From a virus, in the IMG/VR virus record IMGVR_UViG_3300037504_000175, positions 1-38,256 of that record: a stretch of 38,256 bases of DNA; one strand, given 5' to 3'. This document shows, one piece after another, positions 23,268-25,770 of this stretch. The translations under genes were made by a program, and so were the position numbers. The notes under the pieces were generated by a model. That model did not search any database, was not told the origin of the DNA, and saw only the letters and a program-made list of their open reading frames with translations. Position 1 is the first letter of the stretch, and each line of letters opens with the position of its first letter.

Positions 23268-23319
23268 ATCCGAAACCGGCTTCGGCCGGTCTACAGGTAG
23301 CACCTGTACTGATGAGGAT
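23268..23319 (+). ncRNA. Type II hammerhead ribozyme 1
   Basis: In order: ATCC (23268-23271), GAAA (23272-23275), stem III CCGGC-TTCG-GCCGG (23276-23289), the GUC cleavage triplet ending at C23291, stem I TACAGGT-AGC-ACCTGTA (23292-23308), the core CTGATGA (23309-23315), and GGAT (23316-23319) pairing with ATCC as open stem II. Every invariant core base of the hammerhead is present. Stem II open defines type II, the form known from bacteria and phages. Cleavage after 23291 would leave the next gene's mRNA starting with stem I. Confidence 0.88.
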
Positions 23320-23359
23320 ACACCGGATCGCTACCGGCAAACCGAGAGGAGACAACACA

Positions 23360-23623
23360 ATGAATAAGCAGCGATTCAAACGGCTTACTAACGCAGAACT
23401 TATATTAGGTGAGAAGTGGGTTTTGGTTAGAACGATTGACCGTGAAAAACTGCAGCGGCTTACACGTATAGGAGCAGCTCCAGAACGCAAGGTAAAGGTA
23501 TGGTTTAAGCGTTTCCAGAGACAACAATCCCCGAGTGTTGCGGCTAACCTTACGTTCAAACAGTATTTATGTGATCATCATCATTGGATCGTAGACTACA
23601 GCGGTCAAGTTTACGACTGGTAA
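23360..23623 (+). CDS. Basic early protein (87 aa)
   Basis: ATG 23360 follows ACCGAGAGGAG, 40 bases after ribozyme 1. It is strongly basic (NKQRFKRLTNAELILGEKWVL ... APERKVKVWFKRFQRQQ) with aromatic His/Trp-rich C-terminal residues (CDHHHWIVDYSGQVYDW). A nucleic-acid-binding role fits the charge. No family recognised. Confidence 0.6.
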   Translation: MNKQRFKRLTNAELILGEKWVLVRTIDREKLQRLTRIGAAPERKVKVWFKRFQRQQSPSVAANLTFKQYLCDHHHWIVDYSGQVYDW

Positions 23624-23657
23624 GAGACTACAAAAAATAACCGAGAGGAGTAAGACA

Positions 23658-23858
23658 ATGTGTATTTTGTGCAATGGTACTGATAATCTTGTAAACACTG
23701 CGAAACATCAATGGAGAGATGGAAAGTTACCGACTGATGAATATGTTGAGTTCCTGGAAGATACGTATGATGCACATCGAGACTATGAGTGTGCAGACTG
23801 TACTATGATAGCAAACAAGGCAAAATCGTTACTTGACAAAATTGAAGACACCGAGTAA
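23658..23858 (+). CDS. Small four-cysteine protein (66 aa)
   Basis: ATG 23658 follows ACCGAGAGGAG. C-x2-C at the start (MCILCNGTDN) and a later C-x2-C (YECADCTMIA) could bind one zinc. The end is helical (NKAKSLLDKIEDTE). A degraded copy of this C-terminus occurs at about 25687-25712, before hammerhead ribozyme 3. Confidence 0.65.
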   Translation: MCILCNGTDNLVNTAKHQWRDGKLPTDEYVEFLEDTYDAHRDYECADCTMIANKAKSLLDKIEDTE

Positions 23859-23869
23859 GTAACACCAAA

Positions 23870-23932
23870 TATCCCGAAACAAGGCGCTTATAAAGCGCCC
23901 TGTCTACAGTTAGCAACTGTACTGATGAGGAC
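23870..23932 (+). ncRNA. Type II hammerhead ribozyme 2
   Basis: GAAA (23876-23879), a longer stem III CAAGGCGC ... GCGCCCTG with a 7-base loop, GUC ending at C23904, stem I TACAGTT-AGC-AACTGTA (23905-23921), core CTGATGA (23922-23928), then GGAC. Stem III and stem I differ in sequence from copy 1 but keep pairing, including compensatory changes, which argues for a conserved RNA fold. The open stem II is weak (two C-G pairs, perhaps a bulged third), so activity may be lower. Confidence 0.8.
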
Positions 23933-23969
23933 ACCGGATCGCTACCGGTAAACAGAGAGGAGTAACAGC

Positions 23970-24077
23970 ATGGCAAGCCCGAGACTGAGAGAATTAGTCC
24001 GTAACTCAAACACCCGTACGTACACGATGCGAAACGGAAAACTGGTAACCGTATCGTATAAACCAAAACGCAAGTAG
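23970..24077 (+). CDS. Tiny basic protein (35 aa)
   Basis: ATG 23970 follows ACAGAGAGGAG; stop TAG 24075-24077. The product (MASPRLRELVRNSNTRTYTM...) ends in a basic tail (SYKPKRK). It is separated by 14 bases from the next start and lies 38 bases after ribozyme 2. It is below usual gene-calling limits but has the same stereotyped ribosome site as its neighbours. Confidence 0.6.
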   Translation: MASPRLRELVRNSNTRTYTMRNGKLVTVSYKPKRK

Positions 24078-24091
24078 AGAGGAGAAACGCA

Positions 24092-24325
24092 ATGAATTAC
24101 TACAAAATCAAAGACACATTTGACGGTGCAGAACACGTATGGTTTGATGACGATCTTGCTATTGTTTACGTATGGCATGGCGGGAATGGGGTCAATGTAT
24201 ACAGTGCCGATTTGCGGGAAATCGACTACTTCTCTTATGGTGACGGTAAGCTTCAGTCGATGGATTATTACGGGCGGCAGGACGTATTCAAACAACATTC
24301 ACGCATGATTGCAGAAAACGCATAA
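24092..24325 (+). CDS. Early acidic protein (77 aa)
   Basis: ATG 24092 follows AGAGAGGAG. Beta-rich and aromatic: VWFDDDLAIVYVWHGGNGVNVYSADLREIDYFSYGDGK. A related segment (DEDRDTIYVWYGKGFVTLYHM) occurs in the 26970-27386 protein, so the two may share a small domain. Function unknown. Confidence 0.6.
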   Translation: MNYYKIKDTFDGAEHVWFDDDLAIVYVWHGGNGVNVYSADLREIDYFSYGDGKLQSMDYYGRQDVFKQHSRMIAENA

Positions 24326-24332
24326 GACAACA

Positions 24333-24362
24333 GCCCTGGGCACGGCGGTAAACTGCCCTTAA
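24333..24362 (+). repeat. GCCC/GGGC hairpin repeat, copy 1
   Basis: CAGCCCTGGGCACGGCGGTA with following AACTGCCCTT recurs at 24733-24762. It can fold as GGGCA ... TGCCC. Both copies follow the end of a gene and precede the AT-rich leader, so it may be a transcript 3' end or processing element. There is no U-run. Confidence 0.6.
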
Positions 24363-24445
24363 TATTAATAATATAAATAATAATAAGTAAGTAATAATAA
24401 GTATAATAACTTGTAAGAGATACTTACAGGATTATAAGTAAACCG
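24363..24445 (+). repeat. AT-rich leader repeat, copy 1
   Basis: Runs of AATAATAAGTAAGTAATAA, then CTTGTAAGAGATACTTACA, an inverted repeat TGTAAG-AGATA-CTTACA. A similar leader with the same inverted repeat occurs at 24763-24842. It precedes the 24460 gene. Possibly a regulatory leader. Confidence 0.55.
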
Positions 24446-24459
24446 AGAGGAGTAACAAA

Positions 24460-24684
24460 ATGACACAGTCTATCCAATTACAAAATCCATGGTCAGGCAC
24501 TTGGAAAACAGTCACCAATGATGACCTCGATGATGAAAAGTGGGAACAGATGGCTGCATGGATGGATGACGAAATACGGGAACGGGTAAGCGATGAGCTG
24601 GCGCCATGCTCCAAAATCAAGTTTCTTTGCCGGTACGCAGATTACGCCGGTATCGAGGCAACGTCATCTATATATTTTTCATAA
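24460..24684 (+). CDS. Early acidic protein (74 aa)
   Basis: ATG 24460 follows ACCGAGAGGAG. The sequence is Trp-rich and acidic (NPWSGTWKTVTNDDLDDEKWEQMAAWMDDEIRERVSDE). It ends 2 bases before the half ribozyme at 24687. No family recognised. Confidence 0.6.
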   Translation: MTQSIQLQNPWSGTWKTVTNDDLDDEKWEQMAAWMDDEIRERVSDELAPCSKIKFLCRYADYAGIEATSSIYFS

Positions 24685-24686
24685 CA

Positions 24687-24735
24687 ATCCGAAACCGGCT
24701 TCGGCCGGTGCTAATCTGAGCGGTGCCGACATAGC
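24687..24735 (+). repeat. Half hammerhead fused to pentapeptide-repeat gene fragment
   Basis: 24687-24709 repeats the 5' half of hammerhead 1 exactly (AATCC, GAAA, CCGGC-TTCG-GCCGG, T) and then stops before the cleavage triplet. The next ~26 bases read GCTAATCTGAGCGGTGCCGA, nearly the same as repeat units of the pentapeptide gene at 29864-30385 (encoding ANLSGAD). It is a recombination junction, and the ribozyme cannot be active. Confidence 0.7.
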
Positions 24736-24762
24736 CCTGGGCACGGCGGTAAACTGCCCTTT
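24733..24762 (+). repeat. GCCC/GGGC hairpin repeat, copy 2
   Basis: Nearly identical to 24333-24362 (AGCCCTGGGCACGGCGGTAA then ACTGCCCTT). It is followed by a second AT-rich leader and precedes the 24903 gene. The arrangement hairpin plus leader was duplicated as a unit. Confidence 0.6.
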
Positions 24763-24842
24763 AATAATATATATAAATAAGATAATGAGAAATAAATAAG
24801 TAATTAATAAGTAATAACTTGTAAGAGATACTTACTAACACA
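24763..24842 (+). repeat. AT-rich leader repeat, copy 2
   Basis: Resembles 24363-24445, with AATAAGTAATTAATAAGTAAT followed by AACTTGTAAGAGATACTTAC. The inverted repeat GTAAG-AGATA-CTTAC is kept. It leads into the long 24903 gene. No promoter of clear strength is visible. Confidence 0.5.
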
Positions 24843-24902
24843 CAAACCGGCGATGTGTGGGGTGATACCCGCCGCCGCCACAGCAAAAAAGGACGGTACA
24901 TC

Positions 24903-25688
24903 ATGTTTGCGATTGAAGAACACACAATTGAAACACTCGAAAACCAATGGGGTTGTGCAAGTATTTTCCTTGATGCAGAGCCTTATAATTACATGAACTT
25001 TGATACCTATTCGGGAATGGCGGGTGTGCTACACGACATCCGCAAAGATCCCGCTATATTGGACAAGAACGCTAAATATACGTACGCCGTAGCTGATGCG
25101 GTCGTACAAGCATCAGAGTTTTTCAAGGACATACCCGAAAACGAAGCACGCGAAAATGGAAATGGATATGTTAAGGAATCCTTACTTGATGCATTCAAGG
25201 AAAGCATACAACACAGTGTACCAGCATGGTACTTGTGTGATAGTGAAATTAAGTGGTCTATTGAATGGGCCGCTGAACAGTATTACAAGGTAGGAGCGCA
25301 TTACATTGCGCTATGGAAGAAGTTCCGCTTTAACATAAATCAGGCAACTTATGCGGAAGGATACGCATATGTTGATAGAAAAGCCATTATAAATATGCAA
25401 GGTGAAGAGTGGTTGAATAAACACTACTCTAAATCCAATGGCTTTGACGAGTATGCACATGAAATTATTTCCCGTGCTGTAGAGTGCGAAATAGATCAGT
25501 ACCGCGATTGGAAACTCGGCAAATGTTATGGGTATATTGTTGAGGACAAGGACGGTGATGTGATAGATGTATCTTGGGGCTATATAGGCGATGATGGCCT
25601 CAAGCATGCCACGCAAGTGTCACGGGAGATTTTCAATGCCCACGTCGATGAGCAAGAGGCCAAAACAGTGTTCGCCGAAATGGCGTAA
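24903..25688 (+). CDS. Largest early protein (261 aa, unknown)
   Basis: The start is ATG 24903 (MFAIEEHTIETLENQWGCAS), with AAAAAGGAC 8 bases upstream; an upstream Met extension lies in the leader. The C-terminal part contains GKCYGYIVEDKDGDVIDVSWGYIGDD, a pattern I associate with large families of uncharacterised phage early proteins. The middle is helical. The function is not known. Its end runs into the duplicated gene-end remnant and ribozyme 3. Confidence 0.7.
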   Translation: MFAIEEHTIETLENQWGCASIFLDAEPYNYMNFDTYSGMAGVLHDIRKDPAILDKNAKYTYAVADAVVQASEFFKDIPENEARENGNGYVKESLLDAFKESIQHSVPAWYLCDSEIKWSIEWAAEQYYKVGAHYIALWKKFRFNINQATYAEGYAYVDRKAIINMQGEEWLNKHYSKSNGFDEYAHEIISRAVECEIDQYRDWKLGKCYGYIVEDKDGDVIDVSWGYIGDDGLKHATQVSREIFNAHVDEQEAKTVFAEMA

Positions 25689-25712
25689 ATCGTTACTCGA
25701 CACAATGGAAGA
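25687..25712 (+). pseudogene. Remnant of the 66-aa protein gene's 3' end
   Basis: AAATCGTTACTCGACACAAT and GGAAGA match the end of the 23658-23858 gene (AAATCGTTACTTGACAAAAT, TGAAGA) with about 3 changes. It is directly followed by hammerhead 3, as the intact gene is followed by hammerhead 2. The cassette was duplicated together with its 5' flank. Confidence 0.65.
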
Positions 25713-25718
25713 GATATG

Positions 25719-25770
25719 ATCCGAAACCGGCTTCGGCCGGTCTACAGGTAGCTCCTGTACTGACGAGGAT
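25719..25770 (+). ncRNA. Type II hammerhead ribozyme 3
   Basis: ATCC (25719-25722), GAAA (25723-25726), stem III CCGGC-TTCG-GCCGG, GUC ending at C25742, stem I ACAGG-TAGCT-CCTGT, core CTGACGA (25760-25766) and GGAT (25767-25770). The core variant CTGANGA is permitted in hammerheads. Stem I has a one-base change (TAGCT loop) that shortens it. A CCGG hairpin follows, then the ribosome site of the 25830 gene. Confidence 0.85.

Follow-up and report, generated by a model that had tools for sequence, protein, structure and literature searches.

Gene-flanking hammerhead ribozymes are known from prophages, in which three sets were observed to cleave in vitro and one in E. coli, and for which cleavage of transcripts between cistrons has already been proposed (PMC3088659). 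The clustered examples, namely the Agrobacterium tumefaciens ardA triple set and those of Clostridium scindens and Azorhizobium caulinodans, consist of two to three ribozymes that flank small phage genes on one transcript, with cleavage demonstrated (PMC3088659). A different hammerhead variant, reported as one copy, lies 13 nt upstream of an early gene in the archaeal viruses HF1/HF2, haloviruses in which a mapped mRNA 5′ end falls at most 3 nt from the cleavage site (PMC3088659). Here, a 38,256-nt viral record of IMG/VR (IMGVR_UViG_3300037504_000175; "the window" denotes this whole stretch) was analyzed, in which three complete type II hammerheads and a truncated fourth copy sit in a run of small rightward genes. 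The complete copies belong to a subclass with a conserved hairpin 3′ of stem II, and we consider it highly probable that they dice the operon mRNA during its synthesis, helped by a kissing interaction of loop I with the loop of this hairpin.

The window resembles the clustered prophage sets in that its copies flank small phage genes; unlike in those sets, all three complete copies belong to the 3′-hairpin subclass, each precedes the sequence GAGAGGAG, and there is one extra, apparently dead copy. A common transcript, as in the prophage clusters, is what we infer for the window, where three copies lie on one strand between genes.

Identification of the ribozymes

The window has three matches to a hammerhead descriptor; 300 dinucleotide shuffles gave 0.01 on average and 1 at most. 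GAAA, the GUC cleavage triplet and CUGANGA are present in all three complete copies at the places given by the initial annotation of this DNA, and stems I–III follow the type II order, with stem II open and stems I and III closed by loops, as in the Rfam RF02276 (Hammerhead_II) alignment. Cleavage is predicted after C23291, C23904 and C25742, in exact agreement with that annotation, whose placement of each copy between genes and ahead of a GAGAGGAG ribosome-binding site also stands; the second motif is real as well, its start being moved from 23870 to about 23872. Covariance model R2, for which 14 elements from other phages and no window sequence were used, recovered every complete copy with E-values that are rough (short calibrations), the margin being nevertheless very wide (Table 1). 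By this independent model and by covariation of every stem, the three elements are type II hammerhead ribozymes, as had been proposed.

The Rfam search that had been suggested as a check gave a divided outcome. Copies 1 and 3 score slightly under the RF02276 gathering score of 37 bits and copy 2 is unmatched, so that a default Rfam run reports none of the three; with R2, all three are found. The gathering score serves detection and is not a biological feature: models made from relatives yield 56–84 bits, and the majority of the members of the 3′-hairpin subclass fall under the Rfam cut-off.

The initial annotation counted three copies, which is correct for complete ones; it missed the truncated fourth. 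This copy, ATAACAATCCGAAACCGGCTTCGGCCGGT, reproduces the 5′ half of copy 1 (stem II 5′ strand, GAAA and stem III), stops at GGU before the cleavage site and then runs into pentapeptide-repeat-like DNA (24707-24730) resembling the pentapeptide-repeat gene at 29831-30385. It should be catalytically dead, since stem I and the CUGANGA core are missing.

A copy truncated and fused to foreign repeat DNA would suit a reading in which all copies are non-catalytic repeats, that is, recombination remnants among small-gene cassettes whose hairpins act at most as RNA stabilisers or as homology for gene shuffling. The GAAA of copy 3 lies 3 nt past the TGA of a short frame (25591-25719) ending in KSLLDTMEEI, which resembles the KSLLDKIEDTE terminus of the gene before copy 2 and suggests that gene end and ribozyme moved together; this frame is likely what is left of a gene and points to shuffled cassettes, as though a gene had been overwritten later together with its ribozyme. 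The catalytic nucleotides, however, are all intact in the three complete copies and in their relatives, while the stems change by compensation, and copies 1 and 3 differ solely at tolerated positions. Loss of catalysis in the complete copies is accordingly improbable.

A subclass with a covarying 3′ hairpin

The sequence ACCGGATCGCTACCGG directly follows stem II in all three complete copies. The initial annotation had noted a CCGG hairpin after each copy, which is indeed present; rather than a separate downstream feature, it forms part of the ribozyme. IMG/VR scans, each fixing parts of the element, collected 15 further members in other phages, giving an alignment of 18 with the window copies. 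Members have a 6-bp stem I with a 5-nt loop, usually YNGCN, and a stem II of 2–4 bp; a short linker then leads to a hairpin that usually has 5 bp and the 7-nt loop NNNGCUN. The GCU of the hairpin loop and the matching GC of loop I are invariant throughout. All three window copies show the features that delimit the subclass, namely a 6-bp stem I, a 5-nt loop xxGCx and a 3′ hairpin with GCU in its loop.

Across the 18 members, 93.4% of cells are paired and double changes occur in 16 of 24 pairs. The covariation score, 0.41, exceeds that of shuffles (0.11) and of slid versions (0.09 or less). The three stems of the hammerhead, I–III, are 94–98% paired and contain double changes. Both sides change in all six pairs of stem I and in four of the five pairs of the 3′ hairpin; in the latter, the double changes come from one sequence per pair, and this helix is therefore less richly supported than stems I–III. 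When the scan fixed CCGG-N7-CCGG and left the loops free, every genuine hammerhead recovered combined a loop I containing GC with a hairpin loop containing GCU. In a sample whose search pattern left both loop I and the 3′ side free, loop I xxGCx and the 3′ GCU hairpin co-occurred (3 of 4 against 1 of 137, p = 3.5e-5), and the same scan returned altered yet paired hairpin stems, GACGC/GCGUC in L156 and GCCAG/CUGGC in L211. Judging from this alignment, the 3′ hairpin belongs to the ribozyme subclass: it is conserved, and its stem covaries.

In most whole records searched, the subclass occurs as a single copy, and the three of the window are the highest number seen. The last IMG/VR scan gave zero members beyond those already found, and blastn gave none in cultured phages. 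None turned up in two phylum samples of bacterial genomes (299 and 296), where the matches were other type II hammerheads apart from a weak, spurious one. Two genome_contigs matches to the hairpin pattern (L009 and L010) were rejected, as they contain no hammerhead and look like chance coding matches. In four phages (L047, L131, L211 and L274), the 3′-hairpin ribozyme lies 4–5 nt past a gene's stop codon and is followed by homologous genes of ~290 aa, of which the L131 protein matches phrog_35469 and phrog_1909.

A probable kissing version of the known tertiary contact

Hammerheads require stems I and II to be placed side by side. In the members collected here, the complementary GC of loop I and GCU of the 3′ hairpin each lie in a hairpin loop, and in the window copies UAGC/GCUA offers four possible pairs. 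In type II hammerheads, loop I commonly pairs with the 3′ tail beside stem II, and disruption of this pseudoknot strongly slowed cleavage (PMC3088659). The window elements share with RF02276 and the elements of that study the core, the strand order, the open stem II, GUC, an intergenic site in phages or prophages and, probably, a loop I/3′ contact; they differ in that the presumed 3′ partner sits in a hairpin loop and not in a single-stranded tail right after stem II, and in that stem I is fixed at 6 bp with a 5-nt loop. The majority of RF02276 members form a pseudoknot of at least four pairs between loop I and the 3′ tail, whereas in the window the possible UAGC/GCUA pairing falls inside a hairpin loop and GC/GC is the invariant portion. 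The contact is probably a kissing-loop version of the known pseudoknot.

Several observations weigh against this scheme. Both kissing pairs (G-C and C-G) are invariant and therefore beyond the reach of covariation, so that we infer the contact from complementarity; the flanking A-U pair is possible in 9 of the 18 members. Stem II of copy 2 has just two clear base pairs. For copies 2 and 3, the minimum-energy fold beats the active secondary structure, computed with no tertiary contacts, by 2.1–2.5 kcal/mol, and copy 3 contains a competing GAUCCG/CGGAUC helix. A riboswitch-like role for this helix was considered and dropped because relatives do not have it.

Intercistronic layout and arrays in other phages

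The layout was assessed in 200 type II hammerheads, nearly all from fetched viral contigs and found with patterns that left the upstream flank free. GAAA begins within 10 nt after the stop codon of the upstream frame in 73.5% of them, against 6% of random positions, with peaks at 3 nt (51 of 200) and 6 nt (33 of 200); on the 3′ side, 86% have a ribosome site and start codon no more than 50 nt away, against 15% of random positions. In the window, the gaps from stop codon to ribozyme are looser than in other phages (12, 17 and 34 nt; 6 nt for the truncated copy).

With GAAA 3 or 6 nt past a stop codon, stem II and the core would be covered by a ribosome that terminates there. The elements could be regulated switches rather than constitutive scissors, with folding toggled by a factor bound to the 3′ hairpin or by the ribosome finishing the upstream gene, and the strong conservation of the hairpin stem and loop among unlike phages, as well as competing folds near in energy, would fit such a role. 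The looser gaps of the window and the absence from relatives of the alternative helix of copy 3 speak against it, and the kissing contact explains the loop conservation equally well; we regard regulated switching as unlikely, if less so than a loss of catalysis.

Type II hammerheads were very common in phage contigs and often stood in arrays of 4–9. The dominant phage class, with loop I UNANG and a 4-bp stem II, shares with the window the core and the order of stop codon, ribozyme and ribosome site, often in arrays; unlike the window copies, it is devoid of the 3′ hairpin and of GC in loop I. Nine copies were found in the fetched 14 kb of L048 and likewise of L057, and nine matches in the L157 record. 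Streptomyces phage Marav (OQ995441.1, 40841-48860) contains 12 probable hammerheads, and the cultured Streptomyces phages Omar, Salutena, phiScoe1, Tefunt and Diane (NC_054662.1, NC_054657.1, OQ672741.1, NC_054665.1 and NC_054663.1) have 8–10 matches each at E <= 0.01, among which the lowest-scoring few, and a single + strand match of Omar, are doubtful. In these six phages (Arquatrovirinae), the copies lie nearly all on one strand, at about 38–50 kb, and the displayed stretches carry no ribozyme annotation. Multi-copy hammerhead arrays are thus not rare in phages, and the view of the initial annotation that a three-copy array is unusual has to be given up; such arrays are also not new, because gene-flanking sets were reported for prophages in 2011 (PMC3088659).

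Proposed dicing of the operon transcript

In the scheme that we favor, each hammerhead would cut the nascent polycistronic transcript of the rightward run; such segmentation, put forward in the initial annotation as well, is the likeliest role of the elements. Loop I (YNGCN) would kiss the NNNGCUN loop of the hairpin just 3′ of stem II, holding stems I and II side by side and substituting for the loop I/3′-tail pseudoknot of other type II hammerheads. Cuts at the three predicted sites would give upstream messages whose 3′ end is the stem III hairpin with a 2′,3′-cyclic phosphate, and downstream messages beginning with a 5′-OH and stem I, 65–90 nt ahead of the next start codon. The resulting units would extend up to 23259, from 23360 to 23858, from 23970 to 25688 (across the presumably dead copy 4) and from 25830 onward, which may affect mRNA stability or translation.

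Two or more same-strand ribozymes on one transcript would also give ligatable 5′-OH and cyclic-phosphate ends, a possibility raised in 2011 (PMC3088659). Hammerhead pairs would then release the segments 23292-23904 (613 nt) and 23905-25742 (1838 nt), to be joined into circles or spliced messages in the manner of viroid-like RNAs and retrozymes. The authors of the 2011 study sought ligated or circular products and found none (PMC3088659). Moreover, the window segments hold complete genes with ribosome sites, their spacing is irregular, and most subclass members are single-copy in their record and therefore cannot excise anything, all of which makes RNA excision very improbable, the least credible of the readings weighed here.

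Beyond dicing in the window, phage type II hammerheads may be standard intercistronic cassettes, set between stop codon and ribosome site, as many as twelve to an array, with cutting timed against translation termination and with the window subclass using a kissing-hairpin architecture not described before. This wider generalization is put forward tentatively, and we hold it to be more doubtful than correct.

Genomic context in the window

The rightward run is plausibly an early operon because it lies on the strand opposite to the terminase and portal genes. A sigma-70-like promoter candidate heads it (Table 1), a weak one given that such sites are no more numerous in this region than in shuffles. 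No close relatives of the window phage were found by an IMG/VR scan with the TerL protein, nor was a close relative found by blastn of the early region against cultured phages; the best cultured matches of TerL are Marinitoga phages (42–43% identical).

Table 1. Ribozyme copies and neighboring features of the window
Feature	Position	Strand	Remarks
Sigma-70-like promoter candidate	22570-22598	+	TTGACA-17-TATTAT; 11/12 consensus matches; weak
Gene upstream of copy 1	22954-23259	+	101 aa
Ribozyme copy 1	23268-23338	+	R2 83.8 bits, E = 4e-19; RF02276 35.9 bits, E = 7e-5; fold; stem II strands 23268-23271 (5′) and 23316-23319 (3′), GAAA 23272-23275; UUCG caps stem III; stem I 23292-23308, loop UAGCA; core CUGAUGA 23309-23315
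3′ hairpin of copy 1	23323-23337	+	CCGG-AUCGCUA-CCGG; loop GCUA complements loop I UAGC
Ribosome-binding site GAGAGGAG	23344-23351	+	ahead of start codon 23360
Gene downstream of copy 1	23360-23623	+	87 aa, from ATG 23360
Gene upstream of copy 2	23658-23858	+	66 aa
Ribozyme copy 2	23872-23949	+	R2 56.5 bits, E = 1.8e-12; no RF02276 match; stem III longer and different; stem I 23905-23921, loop UAGCA; core 23922-23928; 3′ hairpin 23934-23948
Ribosome-binding site GAGAGGAG	23955-23962	+	ahead of start codon 23970
ORF (open reading frame) downstream of copy 2	23970-24077	+	35 aa
Truncated fourth copy	24681-24709	+	100% identical to 23262-23290; R2 E = 1.4e-3
Gene upstream of copy 3	24903-25688	+	261 aa; matches phrog_6186
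Ribozyme copy 3	25719-25787	+	R2 79.1 bits, E = 5.7e-18; RF02276 34.2 bits, E = 2e-4; stem I 25743-25759, loop UAGCU; core CUGACGA 25760-25766; 3′ hairpin 25772-25786
Ribosome-binding site GAGAGGAG	25815-25822	+	ahead of start codon 25830
Gene downstream of copy 3	25830-26339	+	169 aa

An intergenic module is duplicated at 24332-24440 and 24733-24842 and consists of AGCCCTGGGCACGGCGGTAAACTGCCCTT, an AT-rich stretch and then CTTGTAAGAGATACTTAC, the last of which holds the inverted repeat GTAAG/CTTAC; similar palindromic repeats occur at 27684-27759. The module is possibly a terminator plus an operator. Elsewhere in the window, an RRXRR/HNH (IscB-like) protein is encoded at 35835-37085 (-) and adjoins a HEARO (omega) RNA at 37152-37375 (-; 90.6 bits), the two forming an IscB-omegaRNA locus within a phage contig. 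There is a TnpB-like gene at 33418-34584, and two pentapeptide-repeat proteins are encoded on opposite strands, at 29831-30385 (+) and 37596-38132 (-).

Novelty and implications

The open-licence literature contained nothing relevant on kissing-loop type II hammerheads, phage hammerhead arrays or Streptomyces-phage hammerheads; the supplementary alignments of Perreault 2011 may already include some of the sequences. As far as could be checked, and those alignments aside, the 3′-hairpin architecture is new among this literature. The main text of PMC3088659 is silent on the stop-codon geometry. A 2017 review states that type II hammerheads then lacked a crystal model (PMC6155905); the 3′-hairpin form offers a compact, separable module for structural work.

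What bacterial and phage hammerheads do has awaited an answer since 2011. The tight order of stop codon, ribozyme and ribosome site, the likely tertiary clamp and the cultured phages with 8–12 probable copies make operon dicing directly testable, and these Streptomyces phages are well suited to 5′-OH RNA sequencing.

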